NCBI GenBank assembly: GCA_030612485.1
Contig: JAUWNS010000053.1
Location: forward strand, 1-14,070
Source: Candidatus Bipolaricaulota bacterium
GTDB taxonomy: Bacteria > Bipolaricaulota > Bipolaricaulia > UBA7950 > UBA9294
Direction: 5' to 3'
DNA length: 14,070 nt
The notes beneath the pieces were generated by a model. The model saw only the letters and a program-made list of their open reading frames with translations, ran no database searches and had not been told where the DNA came from. Below, piece by piece: positions 1 to 12,533 of the stretch. The position numbers and the translations under genes were made by a program. Positions within the stretch are counted from its first letter, which is position 1. The number at the start of each line of letters is the position of its first letter.

Positions 1-1668
1 CACATCTTCCTCCAGACAATCGCGTCCCACTACGGAGCGCTCTTCTCAAAGAACGGGAATGGGGTCTGTCATCAGCTTCATTACGAGCGCTTCGGTGCAC
101 CGGGGAAGCCTCTTCTCGGTTCTGATTCCCATACTCCAACCGCGGGTGGGCTGGGGATGCTCGGAATCGGTGCCGGCGGGGTGGATGTAGCCGTAGCGAT
201 GGGAGGGGGACTCTTCTACCTTACTGTCCCTAAGATGATGCGGGTCGTCCTCACTGGCGAGTTTCTGTGGGGTGTTTCGGCGAAGGATGCGGCATTGGAG
301 CTCCTGCGACGGATCTCGGTGAAGGGCGGTGTCGGCTACTTCATCGAGTTTGCGGGACCCGGGGTGAAGACCCTCTCCGTTCCGGAGCGGGCAACGATTA
401 CCAACATGTGCACCGAGACGGGAGCTACCTCGTCGATCTTCCCTGCAGACGAGATCACCGCTGTATTCTTGAAGATGCAGGGACGCGAAAAGGACTTCAC
501 CGAACTCTCCCCTGACGAGGATGCGACCTACGATCAGACGATCGAGATCGACCTTTCAACGTTGAAGCCGCTCGTCGCGATGCCCGGGATGCCGGACAAC
601 GTCTATGACATCGAAGAGGTCCTCGGGACGAAGATCGATCAGGTGTTCATCGGGTCTTGCACCAACGGTAGTTTCCGCGATATCAAGACCGTCGCGGAGA
701 TGCTTAAAGGGAAGCATGTCTCAACTGCAATTGATGTGATCGTCTCCCCTGGTTCGCGTCAGGCTTGGGAGATGTTGATGGAGGACGGTAGCTTCCTCGC
801 CCTCACCAAGGCTGGTGTGCGGATGATCGAGCCGGGGTGCAACGCCTGCATCGGGATCGGGTTCGTCCCTGGGAACGAGCACCTGTCGTTGCGCACGGTC
901 AACCGAAACTGGAAGGGACGTGGCGGGAACAAATTCGGGAAGCTCGCCCTGTGTAGCCCACAGGTCGCGGCTGCGTCCGCCCTCACCGGACGGATTGCCG
1001 ACCCACGGGAACTTCCGCCAGTATCGGTCAGTATTGACCGACTCACGGTGGACGACTACCTGATCCTCGATCCAGTGGGAGATCGGATGGAGATCAGACG
1101 CGCGCCGAATATTGTCCAACTCAAACCGCAAGAGCCACTCTCTCCGATCCTGAAAGGCGAGGTGTTGCTCAAGCTGGGGGACGGGATCTCAACCGACGCG
1201 ATCATGCCGGCTGGACCGCTCACCCAGCACCTGCGCAGCAATCTCCCCGAGATCTCTAAATTCACCTTCTTCTACGAGGACAAGGAATTTGCGACCCGTG
1301 CTCAAGAGAAGAAAGGTGGGTTCATCGTCGGAGGGGATAACTACGGCCAGGGTTCCTCGCGCGAACACGCTGCACTTGCGCCGTGGCAGCTGGGGATCAA
1401 GGCGGTCTTTGCCAAGACCTACGCCCGCATTCACCGGTCCAACCTGATCAACGTGGGGATCATCCCTTTCCTCTGCGATACCGACGCCTTAGATCAGGGT
1501 GATCAACTGGAGATCGATGTCTCCAGCCTGGATGATGGCATGATTCTTACCAACAAGACAAAGGGCGAGACGCTCGCTGTTCATCACGATCTCTCTCCGC
1601 GTGAGGTGGAGATGATAAAGATGGGAGGGCTCCTCTCCTATACAACAGCGCAAAACAAGAAAGGTTAA
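1..1668 (+). CDS. Aconitate hydratase (5' end beyond window)
   Basis: Interconverts citrate and isocitrate through cis-aconitate using a [4Fe-4S] cluster in the cytoplasm. The open frame runs from the first base, so the start lies outside the window. The 555 visible residues look like the single-chain bacterial 'Aquifex type' aconitase of roughly 640-660 residues, so about 85-100 N-terminal residues are missing. Visible motifs are GSDSHTPTAGG (about codons 40-50), the first cluster cysteine in GSCTNG (codon at 658), the second and third in GCNACIG (codons at 838 and 847), and the swivel-domain GQGSSREHAAL with catalytic Ser and Arg (about 1351-1370). It stops at TAA 1666-1668 and is followed by a hairpin, so it is probably transcribed apart from the iclR-icd-aclBA operon that it serves. 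The internal ATG at 157 is not the start, because conserved sequence continues upstream of it. Homoaconitase or isopropylmalate isomerase is less likely given the full-length one-chain architecture. Confidence 0.95.
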   Translation, partial: HIFLQTIASHYGALFSKNGNGVCHQLHYERFGAPGKPLLGSDSHTPTAGGLGMLGIGAGGVDVAVAMGGGLFYLTVPKMMRVVLTGEFLWGVSAKDAALELLRRISVKGGVGYFIEFAGPGVKTLSVPERATITNMCTETGATSSIFPADEITAVFLKMQGREKDFTELSPDEDATYDQTIEIDLSTLKPLVAMPGMPDNVYDIEEVLGTKIDQVFIGSCTNGSFRDIKTVAEMLKGKHVSTAIDVIVSPGSRQAWEMLMEDGSFLALTKAGVRMIEPGCNACIGIGFVPGNEHLSLRTVNRNWKGRGGNKFGKLALCSPQVAAASALTGRIADPRELPPVSVSIDRLTVDDYLILDPVGDRMEIRRAPNIVQLKPQEPLSPILKGEVLLKLGDGISTDAIMPAGPLTQHLRSNLPEISKFTFFYEDKEFATRAQEKKGGFIVGGDNYGQGSSREHAALAPWQLGIKAVFAKTYARIHRSNLINVGIIPFLCDTDALDQGDQLEIDVSSLDDGMILTNKTKGETLAVHHDLSPREVEMIKMGGLLSYTTAQNKKG

Positions 1669-1697
1669 CCCGTTTTCCTTTACAAACCTGAGTCCGC

Positions 1698-1734
1698 GCG
1701 CACCGCTCGATCATGAGCGGTGCGCTTCTCTCTT
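1698..1734 (+). terminator. Hairpin terminator after aconitase
   Basis: An 11-bp perfect stem (GCGCACCGCTC at 1698-1708, GAGCGGTGCGC at 1715-1725) with a 6-nt loop is followed by a pyrimidine-rich stretch, TTCTCTCTT. The U-tract is imperfect, but position (30 nt after the aconitase stop) and stem strength fit a Rho-independent terminator separating aconitase from the next operon. Confidence 0.7.
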
Positions 1735-1741
1735 GCAGCCC

Positions 1742-1770
1742 TTGAAAAGGGGCGATCGAGGAACTATCAT
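1742..1770 (+). promoter_or_regulatory. Candidate sigma70-type promoter of iclR-icd-aclBA
   Basis: TTGAAA (1742-1747) and TATCAT (1765-1770) are separated by exactly 17 nt, a good match to a housekeeping promoter. Transcription would start near 1777, leaving a leader of about 38 nt before the GTG at 1815. It lies just after the aconitase terminator and before the first operon gene. Inferred from pattern only. Confidence 0.55.
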
Positions 1771-1781
1771 ACTCACATAGT
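1763..1781. promoter_or_regulatory. Inverted repeat overlapping the -10 box (candidate operator)
   Basis: ACTAT (1763-1767) and ATAGT (1777-1781) are inverted with a 9-nt spacer and cover the -10 element and predicted transcription start. Many IclR regulators bind a palindrome at their own promoter, so this is a possible autoregulatory site. The arms are only 5 bp, so chance is a real alternative. Confidence 0.3.
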
Positions 1782-1814
1782 AAGATCGCATTCTCGTAAT
1801 GGGAGAACAAACTC

Positions 1815-2582
1815 GTGGGACGAGGGCGCTTGAACACACTGGATAAGTTCGTCAACATCTTGACTCTGTTCACCGAAGGGACGCCTGTAATGAGCGTTCC
1901 CGAGATCGCAATGAGCCTTAAACTTCCCACAAGCACAGCCTACCGCTACGTCTCCGCATTGAAACGTGCCGGACTGATCGAAGAGGCGGCAGGAACAGAT
2001 GGCTACTCCCTCGGTACAAAGATTCTCGAACTTGCCCGCGCTGTCCCTAAGAAGACCCTCCAACAGATCTCAATTCCCATCATGGCTCAACTGGCCAAAG
2101 AGACAGGAGAGAGCATCATCCTCTGTGGACTACGCGACCATGACGGGGTCTGCCTGGAGAAGGTGGAGGGACACCATGTTCTGCGCGTTTCTCATCGGCG
2201 CGGGGCGACCTTTCCGCTGCACGCAGGGGCTTCAGGGAAGGTCCTACTGGCCTACCTTGATACCAGCGAGCGCGATGAGATCATCAACCGGATCGAATTC
2301 ACCAAGTTCTCCGAGACCACAATCACCGATTTGCGCAAACTGAAGGAAGAGCTCCGGAAAATCAGGGCCCAGGGGTATGCGGAGAGTGATGGCGAGGTCA
2401 TCCGCGAAACCTACGGGATCGGCGCACCTATCTTGTCTCAGTCGGGGAAGGCCCTCGCAGCGTTGAGCATCTCCGCTCCGACGCATCGGCTTGAGGGGAA
2501 GAAACGTGAACAGACTATTAAACTGGTGGTCACCGCTGCCAGAAGGATCACGAAAGGACTGTTGACGCAAGAGGTTCAATGA
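1815..2582 (+). CDS. IclR-family transcriptional regulator, first gene of the icd-aclBA operon
   Basis: Cytoplasmic DNA-binding regulator of 255 residues, the usual IclR length. The N-terminal winged helix-turn-helix is at about residues 8-60 (recognition region around 27-50, [20 protein letters not shown]). The C-terminal effector-binding GAF-like domain follows from about 80 to 250, with the family signature [15 protein letters not shown] and a late GIGAPI / ALSISAP segment. The GTG start is chosen because GGGAGA (1801-1806) sits upstream and the frame begins just before the winged helix; no in-frame ATG lies nearby upstream. It is followed after 34 nt by icd and shares its promoter, so it probably controls the citrate-cleavage genes and itself. 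The ligand is unknown; a TCA or 2-oxo acid would be a reasonable guess from context only. Confidence 0.9.
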
Positions 2583-2616
2583 GACACAAGCCACGAAGCA
2601 AAGGAGAGTAAGGTCA

Positions 2617-3909
2617 ATGAGTAACAACCAAGCAGAGAGCGGCACCGCGATTACGATCACCAAGGGGCACCTGAACGTCCCGGATCGACCGATTATCCCT
2701 TACATCCGCGGGGATGGTATCGGGATGGATGTCACCCCGGTGATGTTGAAGGTGGTCGATGCCGCGGTGGAGAAGGCTTACAACGGCAAGAAGAAGATCG
2801 AGTGGCTGAAGGTTTTGGCCGGGGATGAGGCGATCGCCAAGAACCACCCCGATCTATCCGAGGAGGAAATTGCTGCGATCCCTCCCGACGAGCGGCAGAA
2901 TCTCTATCTCCCTGAGGAGACGATCCAGGCGGTCCGCGATTACCTGGTTGCGATCAAGGGGCCACTAACCACACCGGTGGGGGGCGGAATTCGCAGCCTG
3001 AACGTGGCCATGCGTAAGATCCTCGACCTCTTCGCCTGTGTGCGGCCGGTCTGCCACATCGGGACCCCGGCTCCGGTGAAGCGCCCGCAGGACCTGGACA
3101 TCGTCTTCTTCCGCGAAAATACTGAGGACGTTTACTCCGGAATTGAGTGGCGTGCCGGAACCCCGGAAGCGGACAAGGTGATCGCCTGGCTCCGCGATGA
3201 GATGGGCGTTACAAGCATCCGTTTCCCAAAAATGTGCGGGATCGGGATCAAGCCGATCAGCGAGGAAGGGACGAAGCGCCTTGTGCGCGCGGCGATCGAC
3301 TACGCAATCGCTAACGGACGCGAGTCGGTCACCCTCGCCCACAAGGGGAACATCATGAAGTTCACCGAGGGTGCCTTCCGCGACTGGGGGTACGAGGTCG
3401 GACGTGAGTACGAGGAGATCATCACCGAAGACGAGGTGTACAAGAATCATGGGGGGACCGTTCCTGCGGGGAAGATCCTCCTCAAGGATCGCATCGCGGA
3501 TCAGTTCTTCCAGCAGATGCTCCTTCGCCCGGATGAGTACGATGTGGTAGCCACGATGAACCTGAACGGTGATTACATGTCCGACGCAGCCGCGGCCCAG
3601 GTCGGCGGGCTCGGCGTCGCTCCTGGAGCGAACATCAACTACACCACCGGGATAAGCCTGTTCGAGGCGACACACGGGACGGCACCCAAGCACGCCGGCA
3701 AGGACAAGGTCAACCCGGGGAGTCTCATCCTCTCTGCAGTGGAGATGCTCCGCTACATGAAGTGGAACGAGGCAGCAGAGATGGTCCTATCCGGGATAAA
3801 GCGCGCGATCGCGTCCAAACGGGTGACTTACGACCTCGAACGGCAGATGGAAGGGGCGACGCTACTCTCCTGCTCTGCGTTCGGCGACGAGATAATCAAA
3901 AACCTTTAA
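2617..3909 (+). CDS. icd: Isocitrate dehydrogenase, NADP-dependent type
   Basis: Interconverts isocitrate with 2-oxoglutarate and CO2 in the cytoplasm; next to ATP-citrate lyase it may run as a reductive carboxylase. The 430 residues match the E. coli Icd type (416) over the whole length. Visible are the substrate loop [10 protein letters not shown] with Ser127 (equivalent to the E. coli phosphorylated Ser113), catalytic Tyr173 ([12 protein letters not shown]) and Lys243 ([12 protein letters not shown]), and the metal-site region [18 protein letters not shown]. In the coenzyme pocket, Lys358, Tyr405 and Arg409 match the E. coli NADP determinants Lys344, Tyr391 and Arg395. Position 359 is His where E. 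coli has Tyr345. The ATG follows AAGGAGAG (2601-2608) at normal spacing. It is the second gene of the operon; aclB begins 17 nt after its stop. Confidence 0.95.
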
Positions 3910-3926
3910 AAGAGGGTGAATGACTG

Positions 3927-5204
3927 ATGGCACAGAAAGGGATACGTGAATACGACGCCAAGCGCCTGATCGCGAAAGCGCTACCTGAGTATTCGAACGG
4001 AGCATTCCGCTTCGATGGACAGCTGGTGCTTGTCTCCCCGGAGACGGACCTCCCTGCCCTGGTAGCGGAGAATCCATGGCTGAAGAGAGAGCGGCTGGTC
4101 GTAAAACCGGATCAGCTGTTCGGAAAGAGGGGGAAGAACAACCTTCTTCTCCTCGATGCCGATTTCGATCAGGCACGTGCGTGGATCGGAGAACGGATGA
4201 ATAAAGCGGTGACGATCGTGCAGACGACCGGCGAGACCACCGGACGGTTGACACACTTCTTGATCGAGCCGTTCGTTCCCCACGAGGAGGAGTACTACCT
4301 AGCGTTCACCTCCAAGGCCAATGCGGATATCATCCATTTCTCCACTAAGGGCGGAGTGGACATCGAGGCGGTGTGGGATTCTGTCGTGACGATCGAGGTA
4401 CCGGTGGCCGCCGATGCAGCAGAGGTCGACATCATCTCTCACCTACCCGACATAGCCAAGAAGGAGACGATCGCCAAGTTTATCAAGGCTCTTTTCGCGA
4501 TCTACCGCGACTACTACTTTGCCTATCTTGAGTTCAACCCGATCGCCTTCTCAGGCGATACCGTCGTCCCCTTGGACACGGTGGCGAAACTCGACGACAC
4601 CGCTGCGTTCCAGTGCACCGAGAAGTGGGGGAAGATCGAGTTCCCCAAGGCGTTTGGGAGCAGTTCCACCAAGGAAGAGGCGTACATCGCTTCCCTTGAC
4701 GAGAAGACAGGGGCATCGCTCAAGCTGACCCTCCTCAATCCCGAGGGACGCGTGTGGACGCTCGTTGCCGGCGGAGGGGCGAGTGTCATTTACGCGGACA
4801 CGGTCGTCGATCTGGGGTACGGAAAAGAACTCGCAAACTACGGGGAGTACAGTGGAAACCCGACAACTGAGTTGACCTACGAGTACACCAAAACGGTTCT
4901 CGATCTGATGACGCGGAAGCCGGATCCGGACGGTCAGCCAAAGTACCTCTTGATCGGTGGTGGGATCGCCAACTTTACCGATGTTGCCAAGACCTTCACC
5001 GGGATCATCAAGGCACTCGAGGACTACAAGGACAAACTGCGCGAGAACAACGTAAAGATCTACGTGCGTCGCGGTGGCCCCAACTACAAGGAGGGGCTGG
5101 AGAACATGCGACGGGTCGGAGAACGGATTGGGGTTCCCCTCGAGGTCTACGGCCCGGAGACCCACATGACCCGCATCGTATCACTCGCACTGGAGGCCAA
5201 GTGA
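3927..5204 (+). CDS. aclB: ATP-citrate lyase, small/beta subunit (ATP-grasp and citrate-binding)
   Basis: Subunit of ATP-citrate lyase, which cleaves citrate with CoA and ATP to acetyl-CoA and oxaloacetate, the diagnostic reaction of the classical reductive TCA cycle. The 425 residues align with the N-terminal part of animal ACLY and with AclB of green sulfur bacteria (about 400). The order is an ATP-grasp domain (LVVKPDQLFGKRGK near residue 55, FLIEPFVPHEEEYY near 112, YLEFNPIA near 200), then GASLKLTLLNPEGRVWTLVA, then the citrate-binding segment with NYGEYSGNPTTE (Tyr308) and VRRGGPNYKEG, ending in ETHMTRIVSLALEAK. It starts 17 nt after icd, and its TGA overlaps the aclA ATG by one base. 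Naming follows the Chlorobium convention. Succinyl-CoA synthetase beta is excluded by the ACLY-like C-terminal half. Confidence 0.96.
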   Translation: MAQKGIREYDAKRLIAKALPEYSNGAFRFDGQLVLVSPETDLPALVAENPWLKRERLVVKPDQLFGKRGKNNLLLLDADFDQARAWIGERMNKAVTIVQTTGETTGRLTHFLIEPFVPHEEEYYLAFTSKANADIIHFSTKGGVDIEAVWDSVVTIEVPVAADAAEVDIISHLPDIAKKETIAKFIKALFAIYRDYYFAYLEFNPIAFSGDTVVPLDTVAKLDDTAAFQCTEKWGKIEFPKAFGSSSTKEEAYIASLDEKTGASLKLTLLNPEGRVWTLVAGGGASVIYADTVVDLGYGKELANYGEYSGNPTTELTYEYTKTVLDLMTRKPDPDGQPKYLLIGGGIANFTDVAKTFTGIIKALEDYKDKLRENNVKIYVRRGGPNYKEGLENMRRVGERIGVPLEVYGPETHMTRIVSLALEAK

Positions 5205-5206
5205 TG
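5192..5206 (+). promoter_or_regulatory. Ribosome binding site and TGATG junction deciding the aclA start
   Basis: GGAGG (5192-5196) lies inside the last codons of aclB. It is 7 nt from the ATG at 5204 and only 4 nt from the GTG at 5201, so the ATG is the better start. TGA (5202-5204) and ATG (5204-5206) share one base, a layout for translational coupling that would help keep the two lyase subunits in balance. Confidence 0.7.
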
Positions 5207-7051
5207 GAAGACTACAGGCTGTTCACAAGAGAGACTAAAGCCTTCATCTATGGAGGGCAGACCCGCGCAGTGCAGCGCATGCTCGACTTCGACTACATGT
5301 GTCGCAAGGAATCCCCGAGCGTGGTGGCGATGATCACCCCCGAACGAGGCGGGTTCGAGAAGTTCTTCTGGGGAACCAAGGAGGTCCGCATCCCACGCAT
5401 CACGGGCATTGCAGAGGCGACCGCGCGGTTCCCGGAGGCCGATGTGATGGTGAACTTCGCCTCACAGCGATCGGCGTATGACGTGACGATGGAGGCACTC
5501 GATAGCGATACGATCCGCACGGTGGCCGTCATTGCCGAGGGTATTCCCGAGCGGCAAGCACGGATCATGTCCGTAACGGCGAAGAAGAAGGGTAAATGGA
5601 TCATCGGTCCGGCCACCGGCGGTGGAGGCACAGCCGGTGCGTTCAAGATTGGGAACGCTGCCGGGACGATGGAGAACATCAAGATGGCAAACCTCTATCG
5701 CCCTGGCTCAGTCGGCTTCGTCTCCGTCTCCGGGGGGCTCTCCAACGAGATGTACAACGTCATCGCCCGCAATACAGATGGGTTGTACGAAGGGATCGCC
5801 ATCGGCGGTGATGCCTTCCCTGGTTCCTCTCTCCTCGATCACTTGCTCCGCTACGAGGTGAATCCGGAGATCAAGATGGTAGTCTGTCTCGGTGAGTTAG
5901 GAGGGACGGCTGAACTCGAGATCGCGCAAGCCGTCAAGGATGGGCGACTGAAGAAACCACTCGTGATGTGGGTAACCGGAACCTGTGCCAAGGTTCTTCC
6001 CGGCCAGGTTCAGTTCGGACACGCTGGCGCCAAGGCCGATTCGGCCGCGGAGACGGCCGACGCCAAGAACGCCGCCCTGCGCGAGGCGGGGGTAATCGTT
6101 CCCAGTTCGTTCGACGATTACCACCTGAAGATCAAGGAGACCTACGACAAGCTTGTTGCCGACGGTGCGATCACCCCGGCCGAGGACTTCACCCCGCCGA
6201 ACATCCCGATGGACTATAAGCAGGCCGTGGCCGAGGGGCTCGTGCGCAAGCCAACCGGGTTCATCAGCACGATCTGCGATGAGTCGGGAGAGGTTCACAA
6301 CTACTGCGGTATCCCTATCGATGAAGTGATCGACAAGAAATATGGGATTGGTGGCGTTGTCGGACTCCTGTGGTTCAAGAAGGATATCCCGGTCTACGCG
6401 CGTGAGTTTATCGAGATCGTCCTGCAGATCATCGCCGACCATGGCCCGGCAGTCGCTGGGGCGCACAACACCATCGTCACCGCACGCGCGGGCAAAGACT
6501 TGATCAGTTCCCTTGTGAGTGGGCTATTGGCGATCGGCCCCCGCTTCGGCGGCGCGGTGAACGGTGCGGCCGAGCACTTCCTCTACGGATTCCGTAATCA
6601 GCTTCCCCCACGGGAGTTCGTCAATGCGATGAAACAGAGGAACGTGCGGATCCAAGGGATCGGCCACCGCCTACACACGGTGGAGAATCCGGACAAACGC
6701 GTGGAGATCATGAAGGGATACGCGAAAGCACACTTCAAGAAGACCGAACTTCTCGACTACACGCTATCGGTCGAAGCGGTGACGACGCAGAAGAAGAGCA
6801 ACCTGATCATGAACGTCGACGGCTGCATCGGTGTATTGCTCGTCGATCTGTTGAAGGAGCTTCAGTTCTCCGACGCCGAGATCGACGAGATGATCGCCGC
6901 GGGTCTGTTCAACGCCCTGTTCGTCCTCGGTCGTTCGATCGGTTTCATGGGGCACTATTTCGACCAGAAGCGGCTCAAGCAACCGCTCTACCGCCATCCC
7001 ATGGACGAGATCCTCTACGATGTCCCGGACCGACCAGAGAAGGTGGGGTAG
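5204..7051 (+). CDS. aclA: ATP-citrate lyase, large/alpha subunit (phospho-His and citrate synthase-like domains)
   Basis: Carries the phosphorylated histidine and the carbon-carbon bond-cleaving domain of ATP-citrate lyase. The 615 residues align with the C-terminal part of animal ACLY and with AclA of green sulfur bacteria (about 608). The succinyl-CoA synthetase-like N-terminal half has TRAVQRMLDFDYMCRKE near residue 25, GGTAGAFKIGNAAG, RPGSVGFVSVSGGLSNEMYN, and phospho-accepting His273 in QFGHAGAKA. The citrate synthase-like C-terminal half has ADHGPAVAGAHNTIVTARAG, RFGGAVNGAAE, catalytic His488 in GIGHRLHT, Asp539 in MNVDGCIGV, and the conserved end GRSIGFMGHYFDQKRLKQ. The key residues are all present, so the enzyme should be active. 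A gapless junction with aclB and a strong hairpin downstream make it the last operon gene. Plain citrate synthase or succinyl-CoA synthetase alpha is excluded because both domains are joined in one chain. Confidence 0.96.
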   Translation: MEDYRLFTRETKAFIYGGQTRAVQRMLDFDYMCRKESPSVVAMITPERGGFEKFFWGTKEVRIPRITGIAEATARFPEADVMVNFASQRSAYDVTMEALDSDTIRTVAVIAEGIPERQARIMSVTAKKKGKWIIGPATGGGGTAGAFKIGNAAGTMENIKMANLYRPGSVGFVSVSGGLSNEMYNVIARNTDGLYEGIAIGGDAFPGSSLLDHLLRYEVNPEIKMVVCLGELGGTAELEIAQAVKDGRLKKPLVMWVTGTCAKVLPGQVQFGHAGAKADSAAETADAKNAALREAGVIVPSSFDDYHLKIKETYDKLVADGAITPAEDFTPPNIPMDYKQAVAEGLVRKPTGFISTICDESGEVHNYCGIPIDEVIDKKYGIGGVVGLLWFKKDIPVYAREFIEIVLQIIADHGPAVAGAHNTIVTARAGKDLISSLVSGLLAIGPRFGGAVNGAAEHFLYGFRNQLPPREFVNAMKQRNVRIQGIGHRLHTVENPDKRVEIMKGYAKAHFKKTELLDYTLSVEAVTTQKKSNLIMNVDGCIGVLLVDLLKELQFSDAEIDEMIAAGLFNALFVLGRSIGFMGHYFDQKRLKQPLYRHPMDEILYDVPDRPEKVG

Positions 7052-7091
7052 GAGAATAAACCTCTAGCTTCACTCAGCTTGGAACATCATG

Positions 7092-7124
7092 CGACCGGGC
7101 CCACGTGGCCCGGTCGTTGCTTTG
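7092..7124 (+). terminator. Hairpin terminator at the end of the iclR-icd-aclBA operon
   Basis: A perfect 10-bp GC-rich stem, CGACCGGGCC (7092-7101) with GGCCCGGTCG (7107-7116) and loop CACGT, is followed by TTGCTTTG. It lies 40 nt after the aclA stop. The U-tract is modest, but the stem is very strong. Confidence 0.75.
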
Positions 7125-7172
7125 TGGACGGTTACGATTTGGGGGTCTTTTTGAGTGGGGTAATGCGGCAGC

Positions 7173-7201
7173 TTGACACGATAGCCATAGGCGTATATTA
7201 T
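7173..7201 (+). promoter_or_regulatory. Near-consensus sigma70 promoter of the second iclR gene
   Basis: A perfect -35 TTGACA (7173-7178) is followed after exactly 17 nt by TATTAT (7196-7201). This is the best promoter match in the window. The expected start is near 7208, which gives a leader of only about 17 nt before the ATG at 7225. An inverted repeat overlaps the -10. Confidence 0.7.
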
Positions 7202-7207
7202 GATACG
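7192..7207. promoter_or_regulatory. Inverted repeat across the -10 box (candidate operator of second IclR)
   Basis: CGTAT (7192-7196) and ATACG (7203-7207) are inverted with a 6-nt AT-rich spacer centred on the -10 element. Such a site would let a dimeric regulator block the promoter. Short arms keep confidence low. Confidence 0.35.
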
Positions 7208-7224
7208 GTGTTTACATAGTCAAA

Positions 7225-8010
7225 ATGGGGTGGGTAAAACTGTCGAGACAGTACATCAACAAGTCCTTGGATCGAGCGCTTCGAATTCTCGATCTATTTA
7301 GCGAATCAAGAGAAATACTGACGGCCTCGGAGATTGCATCGATACTCAGTACAACTCCTGCGACACTCTATCCAACACTCTACACGCTGAAAGCACATGG
7401 ATACTTGAGCCGAGACGATCGGAAGCGGTATCGCCTCGGCCTCAAGCTGCTCGAAAGAAGCGGGCAGGTTCTTGCCCAGCTTGACGTACGCCGCGTGGCG
7501 CACCTGCATCTTCGTGAACTGGCTCGAAGATGGCAAGTGACCGCCGATCTAGCGGTCCTTTATGGAAATGAGGTCCTCTATCTCGCACGGGAAACCGGAC
7601 ACCCAACAGCAATCCTCAGCGAGGTAGTAGGACGCCGGGTTCCTCTTCATTGCACGTCGTTGGGCAAGGTCCTGCTTGCCCACCTCTCGGATCAGGAGCG
7701 ACTGGAATTGATACAATCCCTCGAGTTGATGGCGTATACTCCACACACCATCACCGAAGCAAAACGACTGACCGCCGAACTGAGTAAGATTCGGGAGCGC
7801 GGATACGCATTGGACATTCAGGAATTCCACCTTGGCATTGCGTGTGTTGGGGCTCCCGTACGGGGATACGACGGGCGTGTAGTGGCCGCGATCAGCCTCA
7901 TGCTTCCTGTCGATGATGAGGTTCGGAACCACGGACACGAGGCGGCGGCCGCTGCTGTAGTTGAAACAGCAGCGGCAATATCGGCTGAATTGGGATTCAC
8001 GACTTCGTAG
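7225..8010 (+). CDS. IclR-family transcriptional regulator (second copy)
   Basis: IclR regulator of 261 residues. The winged helix-turn-helix lies at about residues 14-70 (ASEIASILSTTPATLYPTLYTLKAHGYL around 34-61). The effector domain spans about 85-255, with VPLHCTSLGKVLLAHLS as the family signature and GIACVGAPVRGYDGRVVAAISL near the end. No Shine-Dalgarno precedes the ATG and the predicted leader is about 17 nt, so initiation may be near-leaderless, or the true start may lie slightly further in (the helix-turn-helix begins after residue 10). It is clearly diverged from the IclR at 1815-2582 (different helix and linker), so it is not a recent duplicate. By eye its base use is more AT-rich than that of the acl genes. 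It probably controls the oxidoreductase remnant (17 nt downstream) and the dehydrogenase; the ligand is unknown. Confidence 0.9.
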   Translation: MGWVKLSRQYINKSLDRALRILDLFSESREILTASEIASILSTTPATLYPTLYTLKAHGYLSRDDRKRYRLGLKLLERSGQVLAQLDVRRVAHLHLRELARRWQVTADLAVLYGNEVLYLARETGHPTAILSEVVGRRVPLHCTSLGKVLLAHLSDQERLELIQSLELMAYTPHTITEAKRLTAELSKIRERGYALDIQEFHLGIACVGAPVRGYDGRVVAAISLMLPVDDEVRNHGHEAAAAAVVETAAAISAELGFTTS

Positions 8011-8026
8011 AAAGGTTAATCCAATA

Positions 8027-8425
8027 GTGACACAGAGCAGCCCCTTAGATTGCCATACTTTTGATGTAGTCGTCATCGGTGCTGGCGTGGTCGGATCCGC
8101 CATCGCTCGTTATCTGAGTCGCTGTGCCTGTTCAGTTGCCGTTGTGGAGAAAGAGTCCGATGTCGGAATGGCGGCGAGCTGCCGCAATTCGGGCGTAATC
8201 CACGCCGGCATTAACTACCCGCCTTGCAGCTTGAGAGCCCGATTTCGAGCGCAAGTCCGAGGAAGCGCTTCAGGTCAGGCGATTCTCAAAGCAAGAGAAG
8301 AGCTGCGAGGTACAATCGTAATCGCACCCGTATCCATAGGTGACACAATCCTAAGAGACGTTGCGGGCACGGACATCGATATCGTTGCTACACGCGCGGT
8401 GGAGAGGAAACCGCCTCGGAGGTAA
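8027..8425 (+). pseudogene. Deletion-fusion remnant: N-terminus of GlpA/LhgO-type FAD oxidoreductase joined to C-terminus of a DUF1667 protein
   Basis: This 132-codon frame starts at GTG 8027 behind GAAAGG (8010-8015). Residues 11-73 are a normal FAD-binding start: FDVVVIGAGVVGSAIARYL (GxGxxG at 18-23), VVEKESDVG and SCRNSGVIHAGINYPP. These are typical of L-2-hydroxyglutarate oxidase and glycerol-3-phosphate dehydrogenase-like enzymes, which run to about 400-500 residues. After about residue 73 the similarity ends. The remainder, ILKAREELRGTIVIAPVSIGDTILRDVAGTDIDIVATR (in two parts, 85-94 and 95-123), reads like the last 40-50 residues of DUF1667 proteins, with the N-terminal cysteine motif missing. 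In many anaerobes a GlpA-like FAD protein, a second NAD/FAD oxidoreductase and a DUF1667 protein are adjacent, so one deletion would produce this joint. It lacks the substrate domain and is unlikely to be an active oxidase. The DUF1667 assignment is from memory of the family pattern. Confidence 0.7.
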
Positions 8426-8462
8426 TCCAACATTGAGAACGTACATGCTTGCCCCCGAATGA
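8418..8462 (+). other. Ancestral ribosome site and start of the dehydrogenase, ended by an in-frame TGA
   Basis: GGAGG (8418-8422) precedes TTG 8433 by 10 nt. From there the frame of the downstream dehydrogenase reads LRTYMLAPE, then TGA (8460-8462), then YIVGSGAVDQLAEII without a break. The family's usual start pattern is APxKY or APxRY then V-x-G-x-G-A, so the stop sits where Arg or Lys is expected; CGA to TGA is a single C-to-T change. The site now serves a nine-codon reading frame. Confidence 0.65.
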
Positions 8463-8483
8463 TACATTGTAGGATCCGGGGCC

Positions 8484-9506
8484 GTGGATCAGCTTGCTGA
8501 AATTATCGGCGACCTTGGTCAGCGGGCGCTTGTCTTGGCGGACAGGATGGCCCTTTCCGTTTCCGAGAAAACCATTACTGAACTGAGGAGCAACCTCAAG
8601 GATGTGTACATCGAGGAGTTCAGTGGAGAGTGTACAGAAGCTGCGATTCAACGCACGACAAAGATGCTCAGCGGATTCGACGTGGCCGTGTGCCTTGGCG
8701 GAGGGAAGGCAATCGACACCGGCAAAGCGGCTGCATGTGCCGCCAGTCTTCCGTACGTCACGGTTCCTACCAGCGCCGCTACGTGTGCGGCCTACACACC
8801 CCTTTCCATCCTCCACACTGGCGACGGTGCCTACATGGAGAGTCGGCGACTCAGCTCTCCCCCGGCCGCGCTCGTTCTCGATCCGCTCCTTACGATCACC
8901 GCTCCACCGCGCTTGCTATCCGCGGGCGTAGTCGACGCAGCGGCCCGTGCGTTCGACACGATTCTTGCCGCACGAATCTCCGTCCCGACCATCGAGGCCT
9001 CTCTCTCCCTCGCTGTCTGCCGAAACTACTGGAAGGACGTGCTCCTCCTCGATGCGGAAGCCGCACTTCGGCACAACAAGGACCAAAACGTCAGCGAGCT
9101 CTATACACGCGTTGTCGAAACCTGTATCGTTGGCGCAGGCTTTGCCGGCGAGATAGGAGCTCGGTTCTTTGGACGTAGCTTCAGCCATGCCATAGGATAC
9201 GCCCTGGGCGACATCGTTGACCCCGGTAGTGTCCTGCACGGTGAGACCGTCGGACTCGGAATCCTCGTTCAGTGCGCGTTGGATCCTAGTTTGGAGATCT
9301 CGCTCACCGAGATGCGCGAACTCTTTGAACGCTGGGACGCGCCAACCCGGTTTGCCTTGCTGGGCGTCACCGACATCCGCGGTTCCACGGGACGAACCCT
9401 TGCCGCACGCGCCTACTCGTACCTCGATCTCGTCCGAGCGGTTCCGTTTGACATCACCGCCGAAGATCTCTATCAGGCGATGATTCGAGTCGAAGAAGAA
9501 GCGTAA
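8484..9506 (+). CDS. Iron-containing alcohol dehydrogenase family protein (GldA/HcxA-like), N-terminus interrupted
   Basis: NAD(P)-dependent dehydrogenase of the glycerol dehydrogenase / hydroxycarboxylate dehydrogenase group. From GTG 8484 it has 340 residues; with the 17 codons upstream, including the TGA at 8460, it would be about 357, the normal family length. Visible are the nucleotide-binding GGGKAIDTGKAAA (near residue 72), the segment VPTSAATCAAYTPLSILHTGDG that resembles E. coli HcxA (TIAATCAAWTPLS), metal-ligand Asp in AGVVDAAARAFD, and metal-ligand His residues in FSHAIGYAL and VLHGETVGLGILVQ. The active site is therefore intact and only the first strand is cut off. AGGA (8471-8474) 9 nt before the GTG could allow restart after the TGA. 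The substrate is uncertain: a 2-hydroxy acid, glycerol or another polyol. The HcxA likeness and the LhgO-like remnant upstream favour a 2-hydroxy acid. It may be a recent pseudogene. Confidence 0.8.
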   Translation: MDQLAEIIGDLGQRALVLADRMALSVSEKTITELRSNLKDVYIEEFSGECTEAAIQRTTKMLSGFDVAVCLGGGKAIDTGKAAACAASLPYVTVPTSAATCAAYTPLSILHTGDGAYMESRRLSSPPAALVLDPLLTITAPPRLLSAGVVDAAARAFDTILAARISVPTIEASLSLAVCRNYWKDVLLLDAEAALRHNKDQNVSELYTRVVETCIVGAGFAGEIGARFFGRSFSHAIGYALGDIVDPGSVLHGETVGLGILVQCALDPSLEISLTEMRELFERWDAPTRFALLGVTDIRGSTGRTLAARAYSYLDLVRAVPFDITAEDLYQAMIRVEEEA

Positions 9507-9535: not shown

Positions 9536-10912
9536 CTAACTATCGTTGCTTATCGCTACATCCGGAGGCGGCGCGATGTGTCCCGCATGCATCAGGATCT
9601 TCGTCTCTTCTTGCGCGTGACGGATCTTCTCCTCGGCTTCGCGGCGCAGTTCCTTTTCCGAAAGGATCCGGCGGGCGATCCCCTGTTCGATCGCTTTCAA
9701 CCCCACGGCTACAGCCTCGTTGATGAACACCTCGGTCTCCATCATCGTGGGGACGACATAATCCTCGGATAGCCCCTTCTCTTCCGCCGTCTTGGCAATA
9801 GCGCACGCGGCGGCGATCGCCATCTCGTCGGTGATCGTCGTAGCGAAGACGTCGAGGGTCCCACGGAAGATCCCGGGGAAGCCGATCGAGTTGTTCACCT
9901 GGTTAGGGAAGTCGGAGCGACCGGTCCCCACTATCCGCACCCCTGCCTCTTTCGCTTCCCACGGCCAGATCTCAGGGATCGGATTGGCCATCATGAACGC
10001 GATCGCATCACTGCTCATCCCGGCGAGCCACTCCTTCTTGATCGTTCCCGGCCCGGGACGGGTAAAGGAGATCATGACATCGGCCCCACTCAGAGCCTCG
10101 GCAATCCCACCGCGCACTCCTTCGTCATTGGTGGAGGCGAGCATCTCCCCGCGGTAAGGGAAGAGCTTCTCCAGGTCCATCTCGGGGGTCAATAGGGTGG
10201 GACTCCCGTCTATGAGATCGACCACGCGGATCCTTTCAGCGGGGACTCCAGCCTTGATCAACACACGAACGACGGCGGTACCGGCAGCACCAATTCCTAG
10301 TTGGGTAACCCGGACATCGGAGAGGTCCTTTCCGACGAATTTGAGCGCGTTGATGACCCCTGCAAGGGTGATTGCGGCTGTCCCCTGTTGGTCGTCGTGC
10401 CAGACCGGGATATCAAGTTCCTCGCGTAGCCGGTCGAGGATGTAGAAACACTTAGGACTGGAGAAGTCCTCCAGGTTGATCCCACCGAACCCTGGGGCGA
10501 TCCACTTGACGGCCTGGATGATCTCATCGGGGTCCTGCGTATCGAGCATGATCGGGAACGCTCCCACCCCGCCCAAGTACTTGAACAGGAGCGCCTTCCC
10601 TTCCATTACCGGCAACCCGGCGTGCGGCCCGATGTTTCCCAGTCCAAGGACGCGCGAGCCATCGGATACGACCGCAACTGTGTTCGCCTTGTTCGTATAG
10701 TCGAAGACCTTGCTCGGGTCGGCTTCGATCTCGCGGCAGGGAGCCGCAACCCCCGGCGTATACCAGATGCCAAAATCTTCGATTTCCGCAACAGAACACT
10801 TGAGAGCCGTCTCCACCTTTCCATGGTAGTGCGCGTGCCACGCCGGAGCCTTCTTCCCGGGAATTTGGGCTTTCTGTTTCATCTTCTCGATATTGACGAG
10901 TGCGTCCAACAT
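9536..10912 (-). CDS. Malic enzyme (malate dehydrogenase, oxaloacetate-decarboxylating)
   Basis: Converts malate and NAD(P)+ to pyruvate, CO2 and NAD(P)H, or the reverse. It has 458 residues, close to the usual size of the short bacterial type lacking the phosphotransacetylase tail. Visible are catalytic Tyr51 in WYTPGVAAPCREI, catalytic Lys106 in VMEGKALLFKYLGG, metal ligands Glu148 and Asp149 in NLEDFSSPKCF and Asp173 in WHDDQQGTA, a Rossmann GIGAAG at 206-211, and the NNSIGFPGIFRGTLD segment. The cofactor preference cannot be read with confidence. The ATG is 1 nt after the fumarase beta stop, with GAGGAGG in the end of that gene 6 nt upstream, so translation is coupled. It ends 29 nt from the convergent dehydrogenase with no hairpin in the gap. 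Lactate-type malolactic enzyme is a remote alternative. Confidence 0.93.
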   Translation of the reverse strand: MLDALVNIEKMKQKAQIPGKKAPAWHAHYHGKVETALKCSVAEIEDFGIWYTPGVAAPCREIEADPSKVFDYTNKANTVAVVSDGSRVLGLGNIGPHAGLPVMEGKALLFKYLGGVGAFPIMLDTQDPDEIIQAVKWIAPGFGGINLEDFSSPKCFYILDRLREELDIPVWHDDQQGTAAITLAGVINALKFVGKDLSDVRVTQLGIGAAGTAVVRVLIKAGVPAERIRVVDLIDGSPTLLTPEMDLEKLFPYRGEMLASTNDEGVRGGIAEALSGADVMISFTRPGPGTIKKEWLAGMSSDAIAFMMANPIPEIWPWEAKEAGVRIVGTGRSDFPNQVNNSIGFPGIFRGTLDVFATTITDEMAIAAACAIAKTAEEKGLSEDYVVPTMMETEVFINEAVAVGLKAIEQGIARRILSEKELRREAEEKIRHAQEETKILMHAGHIAPPPDVAISNDS

Positions 10913-10913
10913 T

Positions 10914-11519
10914 CTATGCCTCCTCTTCGATGCGAGCGTAAATCTTCTTCATGTTATCATCGATCAAAACCGCCAAATTCTTGTATAGGTCGTTTCCGCG
11001 AGCATCCATCGTAACCAAGAGCGGTCCGAACCTCTCGACCTCAAGTAGCCACACGGCTTCCGGCATTCCAAGTTTCTCCAACCAGTGAACACCGGTGATC
11101 CTGTGGATCGCGCGTGCGGCGAGCGCCCCGGCTCCCCCGGTGAAATGCGTGTAGACAGCACCAACGTCGGAGAGCGCCTCCAGGGTCCGGGCCCCCATCC
11201 CTCCCTTTCCGATGATCAGGCGAGTGGAGTAGGTGCGGAGAAACTCCGCCTCAAACATCTCCATCCGGATGCTCGTGGTCGGACCGGCGGACACAACGTT
11301 CCATCCGGATGCTTCCTTCTGCACAACAGGGCCACAGTGGAACATGGCCATCTCTCCCGGGTGAAACGGAAGCTCCTCGCCGCTATGCGCGGCCTGGAGC
11401 AAGACCTGGTGAGCCTCATCTCGCGCCGTGAAGACGCTCCCCGTAATGTAAATCGTGTCACCGGCGCGTAGATCTCGTATCGCCCGTTCGTCGAACGGCG
11501 TCCTTAGGATCGTGTCCAT
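10914..11519 (-). CDS. Class I fumarate hydratase, beta (C-terminal) subunit
   Basis: Half of the two-subunit [4Fe-4S] fumarase that interconverts fumarate and malate. The 201 residues carry the family hallmarks in order: GSVFTARDEAH (25-37) with the TxRD active-site motif, FHCGPVV (60-66), SAGPTTSIRM (77-86), IIGKGGM (102-108) and HFTGGAGALAA (125-135). Its ATG directly follows the TAG of the alpha subunit with no gap, behind a strong GGAGGTGA, and malic enzyme follows after 1 nt. L-tartrate dehydratase beta belongs to the same family and cannot be excluded from sequence alone, but the malic enzyme partner favours fumarase. Confidence 0.92.
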   Translation of the reverse strand: MDTILRTPFDERAIRDLRAGDTIYITGSVFTARDEAHQVLLQAAHSGEELPFHPGEMAMFHCGPVVQKEASGWNVVSAGPTTSIRMEMFEAEFLRTYSTRLIIGKGGMGARTLEALSDVGAVYTHFTGGAGALAARAIHRITGVHWLEKLGMPEAVWLLEVERFGPLLVTMDARGNDLYKNLAVLIDDNMKKIYARIEEEA

Positions 11520-12380
11520 CTAGCTCACCTCCACATGGCCGGCTCCATCGACGGTGACGATCTTGCGTCGATCAGCCCAGCACTGGTATACGAGACCGAC
11601 GGGCAGCGATGCCGGATGTCGATGGGCGAACTCTATATGGACATCCAGGGCCGTCGTTCGTCCGCCGAGGCCCATCGGACCCACCCCACTCTCGTTGATC
11701 AAGCCGAGCAACTCTTCTTCCATCCGCGCGACACTCATGTTGGGATGCCGATCTCCCACGGGGCGCAATAGCGACAGCTTGGCGAGCTTCATCGCTAGAT
11801 CGGCACCACCACCGATACCTACGCCAATTACACCGGGCGGACAAGGTTTCCCTCCGCATGCAACGACATGATCGACAACGAAACGTTTGACCCCTGCGAG
11901 CCCGGCACCCGGAGGAAGCATGCGGAGTGCACTACAGTTCTCGCTTCCTCCCCCTTTTGGAAGAAGATGAATGAGGCATGCGTCGCCCTCTTCAAGCTCC
12001 CACAGGATATAGGGAATGTGATACCCTGTATTGTCCCCAGGGTTTTGTCCCGTGAATGGATCGACCGTATTGGGGCGCAGCGGAACGTCACGTGTCGCGC
12101 AACGCACAGCCTCTTCGATAACGCAACGTAGCGAAGAGAGGAGTGGAAATTTCACCCCTACACGGACAACAAAGGTCTGGATCCCCGTATCTTGACACAT
12201 CGGGACCGAGTTACGCCGGGCGACTTCGGTGTTCTCCAAGATGGCGCTAAGTTGTACAGCGCCGGTGCTCTCTTCTTTATCTCTTGCCCGGTTTATAGCG
12301 TCTACAACATCAACAGGAAGTTCGGTTGCCGCAGCCCGTATAGCTTCTTGGAGGCCCTCCAATAAAATACGTTCATCCAT
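11520..12380 (-). CDS. Class I fumarate hydratase, alpha (N-terminal, Fe-S) subunit
   Basis: Carries the oxygen-sensitive [4Fe-4S] cluster of the two-subunit fumarase. From ATG 12380 it has 286 residues, the usual size. The three cluster cysteines are Cys62 in PMCQDTG, Cys149 in GGSENCSAL and Cys180 in GGKPCPPGVIGVGIGG; a conserved NTVDPFTGQNPGDNTGYHIPY segment lies between, near residues 104-124. An in-frame GTG at 12389 would add three residues. The ATG is preferred because GGTGA is 6 nt upstream and the protein then opens MDERILLEG. It is the first gene of the alpha-beta-malic enzyme operon, with 0- and 1-nt junctions downstream. Upstream lies a 153-nt gap holding inverted repeats. Tartrate dehydratase alpha is the alternative within the family. 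Confidence 0.92.
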   Translation of the reverse strand: MDERILLEGLQEAIRAAATELPVDVVDAINRARDKEESTGAVQLSAILENTEVARRNSVPMCQDTGIQTFVVRVGVKFPLLSSLRCVIEEAVRCATRDVPLRPNTVDPFTGQNPGDNTGYHIPYILWELEEGDACLIHLLPKGGGSENCSALRMLPPGAGLAGVKRFVVDHVVACGGKPCPPGVIGVGIGGGADLAMKLAKLSLLRPVGDRHPNMSVARMEEELLGLINESGVGPMGLGGRTTALDVHIEFAHRHPASLPVGLVYQCWADRRKIVTVDGAGHVEVS

Positions 12381-12533
12381 GTAGGTCACCGTCTTTGCCT
12401 GAGAATAAACAATCGTACCCCTTGAGGTCTAGAATGAGAGTTGTCTCATGCAAGATGAGCATGAAGCGGCAGACCTGATGCAAGTTTCCAGGGCGAGAAG
12501 TAGATATAACGCGCGATTTACCCTGGCCATCTC
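12381..12533 (-). promoter_or_regulatory. Leader of the fumarase operon with two overlapping inverted repeats
   Basis: This 153-nt gap is read on the minus strand into fumarase alpha. It holds a perfect ATGAGA-N4-TCTCAT inverted repeat (12434-12449) and, overlapping it, TCATGC-N7-GCATGA (12446-12451 with 12459-12464). Either could be an operator or a small RNA hairpin. A wider CCAGGG / CCCTGG pair (12488-12493, 12521-12526) is too far apart to be convincing. I see no clear -35/-10 pair on the minus strand, so the promoter position is not called, and no clear terminator for the upstream aminotransferase. Confidence 0.4.

Follow-up and report, generated by a model that had tools for sequence, protein, structure and literature searches.

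The window, the whole 14,070-nt stretch of contig JAUWNS010000053.1 that we analysed, carries a 132-codon open reading frame directly downstream of an IclR-family regulator gene, and in this frame the start of a DAO-family flavoenzyme gene runs into the end of a DUF1667 gene. The features at and around the fused ORF are:

7225..8010, plus strand: IclR-family regulator, intact, 261 aa, the retained left flank (PF01614, E 1.5e-41; PF09339)
8011..8015, plus strand: AAAGG, a possible ribosome-binding site by reading of the sequence, 11 nt upstream of the GTG
8027..8425, plus strand: fused ORF, 132 codons, GTG start, TAA stop; probably what is left of an operon for DAO, a second FAD oxidoreductase and DUF1667
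8027..8245, plus strand: residues 1-73, N-terminus of a DAO-family flavoenzyme (PF01266), 90% identical to P0033 and 95% to P0089
8246..8275, plus strand: junction stretch, 30 nt, residues 74-83, resembling neither parent protein by alignment
8276..8425, plus strand: residues 84-132 and stop, C-terminus of a DUF1667 protein (PF07892), 85-94% identical to 13 DUF1667 proteins
8445..9506, plus strand: iron-containing alcohol dehydrogenase (Fe-ADH), glycerol dehydrogenase-like (PF00465), with an in-frame stop near its start
8460..8462, plus strand: TGA at codon 6 of the Fe-ADH frame, from translation beside P0144 and P0145, which both have Arg there
9536..10912, minus strand: malic enzyme, right flank common to relative G096; shares 79% identity with the gene that follows DUF1667 in locus L075 of that genome
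10914..11519, minus strand: putative fumarase-like hydro-lyase beta, right flank common to G096; 68% identical to the L075 gene
11520..12389, minus strand: putative fumarase-like hydro-lyase alpha, right flank common to G096; 77% identical to the L075 gene

The best NCBIfam match of the malic enzyme was the NADP-dependent malic enzyme, under that model's cut-off, and the gene pair at 10914-12389, which we take to encode a fumarase-like hydro-lyase, stands in the same order in L075 as in the window. Upstream, positions 1-7051 hold in a row an aconitase gene that runs off the window start, an IclR gene, an NADP isocitrate dehydrogenase gene and the genes for both ATP-citrate lyase subunits. This order was also found in Bipolaricaulota loci L008 and L035, and by its gene content the stretch is read as a reductive-TCA-like cluster that cleaves citrate and has an IclR gene of its own. 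The large subunit of ATP-citrate lyase was 80-84% identical to that of 11 loci, with the next one at 71%; nine of the 11 carry the label Candidatus Bipolaricaulota or Acetothermia, the other two are labelled 'uncultured bacterium' and Neomarinimicrobiota, and judged by this protein the window is closest to Candidatus Bipolaricaulota. In locus L101 (G002), a 129-codon ORF at 6284-6673 lies downstream of ATP-citrate lyase and matches large-subunit residues 530-573 at 77%, perhaps as the leftover of a tandem duplication.

The sequence-only reading had taken residues 11-73 of the fused ORF for an FAD-binding N-terminus and the remainder for a DUF1667 C-terminus, and had proposed that residues 1-73 and 74-132 be searched separately. 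Scanned apart against Pfam, the halves indeed fell into different families: residues 1-73 matched the beginning of PF01266 (DAO; E 1.2e-16, 61.7 bits against a gathering cut-off of 27.9, profile 1-55 of 353), and the sole match of residues 74-132 was PF07892 (DUF1667; E 1.8e-8, 34.7 bits against a cut-off of 27, profile 44-82 of 82), which reaches the profile end. Both matches are well beyond chance, and the failure of the C-terminal half to match DUF1667, which had been named in advance as a refutation, did not occur. Both domains are incomplete, the DAO match extending only to profile position 71 when the whole ORF was scanned and the DUF1667 match being confined to the second part of its profile. 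The nearest NCBIfam models of the whole ORF were L-2-hydroxyglutarate oxidase and type 2 glycerol-3-phosphate oxidase, at about 60 bits; these scores lie far under the cut-offs of 299 and 460, as a fragment would be expected to score. We take GTG 8027 as the start because homologues P0001, P0002, P0033 and P0089 share this start Met and begin at the same place.

Phe73 (base 8245) is the last residue at which the ORF resembles flavoenzymes, and its similarity to DUF1667 proteins begins at Gln84 (base 8276). The break therefore covers 8246-8275, near the 8246-8258 that had been proposed. When we used blastn-short to compare 8241-8280 with the rest of the window and the retrieved loci, no source for the junction was found: the best 20 rows were matches of 10-16 nt with E of 1.1 or worse.

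Close intact homologues exist for both halves. The 90% match to residues 1-73, P0033 (502 aa, 34 member sequences), is a full DAO protein with a Fer2_BFD domain; PF01266 covers profile 1-352 in this protein and 1-351 in the intact DAO of G008, which also has Fer2_BFD. On the other side, the 13 DUF1667 proteins that match the second half (P0004-P0012 and P0014-P0017) are 121-128 aa long, with P0004-P0012 and P0014-P0016 at 128 aa each and P0017 showing a 7-residue gap; P0005, 94% identical to the C-terminal half, was found on 28 contigs. The closest intact relatives of the two halves appear to belong to one clade, and with intact genes present in such close relatives, the loss was probably recent. 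The same longest contig is listed for P0007 and P0089 (5027 bases) and likewise for P0010 and P0144 (3082 bases), so that, from these lengths, DUF1667 may lie near DAO and near Fe-ADH in the relatives. Two other close DAO sequences depart from the pattern: the end of P0089 (365 aa, the 5027-base contig) diverges as by a frameshift, and P0002 (117 aa, contig of 7254 bases) seems to go out of frame part-way in the same manner. These seem to be further broken alleles or sequencing errors.

The fusion itself was found a second time. P0001 (132 aa, on an ENA contig of 2074 bp) carries the whole of it, with a junction identical residue for residue to that of the window, and the sole difference between the two proteins is at residue 11, Thr in the window and Ile in P0001. 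Among 23 matches to the whole ORF, drawn from candidates of 0.55 to 1.75 times the query length, only P0001 covers the query (99%). Full-length homologues in unrelated genomes had been named in advance as the observation that would tell against a deletion product; what was found was this one near-identical copy, and we rejected a widespread conserved fusion gene, P0001 being the only full-length homologue among the 23. A plasmid collection queried with 7225-9506 returned no match, and a scan of viral_contigs with P0005 for progenitor DNA returned no relative. In the parts of the DUF1667 literature reached by full-text search (sections of PMC9239216 and PMC7282089), such a fusion is not described.

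An intact three-gene operon had been predicted for sister genomes, and relatives do carry it. In G096 (L075), an IclR gene (3246-4181) and an EamA transporter gene (4275-5192) precede a DAO gene (5246-6763, 505 aa), a second FAD/NAD oxidoreductase gene (6744-8003) and a DUF1667 gene (7994-8392), after which come a malic enzyme gene and then two fumarase-like genes on the opposite strand. The window runs from IclR (7225-8010) through the stub (8027-8425) and Fe-ADH to the same malic enzyme and fumarase-like genes, which here lie on the minus strand. G096 therefore has the flanks of the stub on both sides; the two differ in that EamA is found only in G096 and Fe-ADH at that place only in the window. 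The trio is also intact in G084 (L074) and G094 (L072). The contig of G008 (L098) ends inside the second oxidoreductase gene and so holds no DUF1667 gene; there, 15 nt separate the IclR stop from the full DAO gene, compared with 16 nt ahead of the stub in the window. An IclR gene lies upstream of the operon in G096, G084 and G008, the latter two agreeing with the window on this side. In the 10.3-kb stretch from G094 none was seen; EamA stands between IclR and DAO in both G096 and G084. The window IclR is 75% identical to the IclR before DAO in G008, 66% to that in G096 and 67% to that in G084, and the full-length DAO proteins of the four relatives are 491-505 aa long. Near the operon or Fe-ADH in sister loci we also observed genes for a Zn-alcohol dehydrogenase and an Ldh_2 dehydrogenase (both by Pfam in L099 of G008) and a creatininase-family gene (by Pfam in L075 of G096), with look-alikes of these recognised by eye across L099, L075 and L074, hinting at a larger catabolic cluster.

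Across 100 Bipolaricaulota genomes, DUF1667 matched (E <= 0.001) in 40, and the best of these proteins was only 62% identical to P0005, which means that the species of the window is absent from those 100 genomes. We examined 33 of the 41 DUF1667 places, in loci that reach about 1.5 kb and show only the end of DAO. The second oxidoreductase and the DAO end lay just upstream of DUF1667 in 28 of them, so the adjacency of the trio, which the sequence-only reading had called frequent in anaerobes, is usual in the phylum. Four of the five exceptions end too early, L042, L048 and L062 within 340 bases upstream and L050, in which the second oxidoreductase is present, before DAO. G050 has a DUF1667 gene with no recognisable DAO or second oxidoreductase gene in L063 or in the 16-kb stretch L081 of the same contig.

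The relatives also allowed us to measure what the window would have lost. Counted from the DAO motif LRARF up to the position in DUF1667 with which the restart aligns, the missing interval comes to 2757 bp in G094 and 2751 bp in G096; it was measurable in these two of five loci tried, the motif not being found in the other three. A deletion of roughly 2-2.5 kb had been estimated, which is slightly below the measured value of about 2.75 kb. In G094 and G096 both genes are in the same frame (the interval is divisible by three), and an open frame after the deletion thus needs no special cause. An origin in a single deletion is not proven, because the 30 junction bases match neither parent; a deletion with filler, or one followed by later small changes or indels, is a possible fit.

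The gene after the stub carries a lesion of its own. Two intact Fe-ADH relatives of 353 aa, P0144 (10 member sequences) and P0145 (26), are 95% identical to the window gene and begin MLAPERYIVGSGA; from ATG 8445 the window encodes the same residues save the TGA in place of Arg. The open part of the gene spans 8484-9506 (340 codons), and translation could possibly restart at GTG 8484, preceded by AGGA with nine bases between, at the loss of 13 residues. In the window haplotype, the two enzyme genes next to the regulator thus both look damaged. Fe-ADH was not accepted as a fixed part of the operon: a match was found in six of the 100 phylum genomes, and the only close one (59%, in G008) lies on a different contig.

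What is left of the two redox proteins is small. About 85% of the flavoenzyme is missing from the stub, which retains the GxGxxG unit but has lost the remaining flavin domain along with the substrate part and the [2Fe-2S] domain. In the DAO fold, an FAD site takes more than a single beta-alpha-beta unit, and since only the first such unit of the flavin fold remains, we found no support for the suggestion that a small FAD-binding chimera might be made. The N-terminal cysteines of DUF1667, CxxCxxxC and a fourth in close relatives, which presumably bind a metal, are absent; in P0005 all of them precede the junction. On these grounds neither redox protein would be expected to work from the stub. 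An AlphaFold2 model, built with 13 aligned sequences only, was of low confidence, with a mean pLDDT of 52, a pTM of 0.43 and no residue at 90 or above, and is a weak test. Both fusion copies, in the window and in P0001, carry G67C and G116D at sites that homologues conserve, with Cys found at the first position in none of 117 homologues and Asp at the second in none of 47. Of 29 well-conserved N-terminal columns, however, one is altered in the stub, against 0-4 in the 120 homologues. The N-terminal half taken together has no excess of changes, so that this comparison does not favour decay and relaxed constraint is only weakly supported.

Solved structures matching the G008 DAO protein were an uncharacterised exported protein (3dme), FI05204p (8w75), L-alpha-glycerophosphate oxidase (4x9m) and glycine oxidase (4ysh), and those matching the second oxidoreductase of G096 were thioredoxin reductases, NfnA and glutamate synthase small chains; P0005 had no significant match among solved structures (best E 0.22). 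In the available part of PMC7282089, a GlpA/LhgO-like FAD protein, an FAD oxidoreductase and a DUF1667 protein of Pseudoclostridium thermosuccinogenes (CDQ83_RS11610/11605/11600) form a putative oxidoreductase complex whose genes adjoin glycerol kinase. As far as that account goes, the gene kinds are the same three, and the stub corresponds to the beginning and the end of such a cluster; in the window, unlike there, the middle gene is missing, the outer genes are joined in truncated form, and the neighbours are IclR and Fe-ADH. Going by the family matches together with this partial account, the product of the intact operon is probably a dehydrogenase complex of the glycerol-3-phosphate or 2-hydroxyacid type.

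Because the window may be a metagenome record, we considered that loci or strains had been joined by the assembler and that the genome truly has an intact operon. Mixing of strains is plausible since close intact relatives exist (P0005 on its 28 contigs), and P0003 (149 aa, contig of 831 bases), a different chimera in which a DAO start is joined to an elongation factor G end (PF00679), looks artefactual and is probably an assembly chimera. The identical junction of P0001 on a separate ENA contig argues against this, as a chance mis-join would hardly recur, with the caveat that both contigs could stem from related samples; the gene order beyond the break also agrees with G096, except for Fe-ADH and EamA. 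Given P0001, we rejected mis-assembly as the main reading and consider it very unlikely. A true deletion in a genome that keeps the function through a second intact operon elsewhere, an explanation that overlaps with a scar, draws on the same existence of close intact relatives and is somewhat easier to entertain, yet still unlikely: the stub sits at the ordinary locus, since the operon of G096 has the same place, and only one of the 40 positive genomes (G027) has two DUF1667 matches, the second of them weak (E 6.1e-5).

The open frame, the retained start, the possible ribosome-binding site and the presence in two assemblies could instead point to a small functional fusion protein under selection, for example an ADP- or flavin-binding regulator. 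We regard this as highly improbable, given that about 85% of the flavoenzyme and the DUF1667 N-terminal cysteines are gone, that no copy other than the near-identical P0001 appears among the 23 matches, that the predicted model, for what this weak test is worth, is poor and that the neighbouring Fe-ADH is damaged too. There is equally little chance that translation from the old start yields a fusion protein retained for a new role, such as binding of a nucleotide cofactor or interference with the remaining flavoenzymes.

Together, these data argue that ORF 8027-8425 is very probably the deletion scar of the operon in a decaying catabolic locus; a new protein is not favoured, with a young pseudogene as the most likely nature of the stub. 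The intact operons uphold the original proposal of a deletion over most of the first gene, all of the second and the front of the third. In the ancestor, the order would have been IclR, DAO (about 500 aa, with a BFD-type [2Fe-2S] domain), a Pyr_redox_2 oxidoreductase (about 417 aa), DUF1667 (128 aa) and then Fe-ADH, the last of which we infer to have stood after DUF1667. A deletion of about 2.75 kb, the presumed origin of the fusion, would have begun at codon 73 in the first gene and reached into the third, to about its codon 79, leaving 30 unexplained bases at the join and the frame open. The remainder would be the first beta-alpha-beta unit of the flavin domain and a DUF1667 end without its N-terminal cysteines. 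With an early stop in the Fe-ADH after the stub as well, the function of the locus seems to be on its way out, and the stub and the TGA may be parts of one decay. Against a scar stand the fully open frame with its old start, the open P0001 in another assembly, by which the fusion was not broken at once, the single altered column among the 29 conserved N-terminal ones, the 340 open codons of Fe-ADH after GTG 8484 and the unexplained junction bases.

The fusion is thus real and most likely ordinary, a gene remnant, and it serves as a warning for annotation that a clean-looking small protein of two domains may be no more than a scar. Expression and selection of the stub, if they occurred, would make it a traceable case of gene birth by deletion. 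As a scar, it would show a catabolic operon of an uncultured phylum caught soon after its loss, with intact and fused forms coexisting in databases at about 90-95% protein identity.
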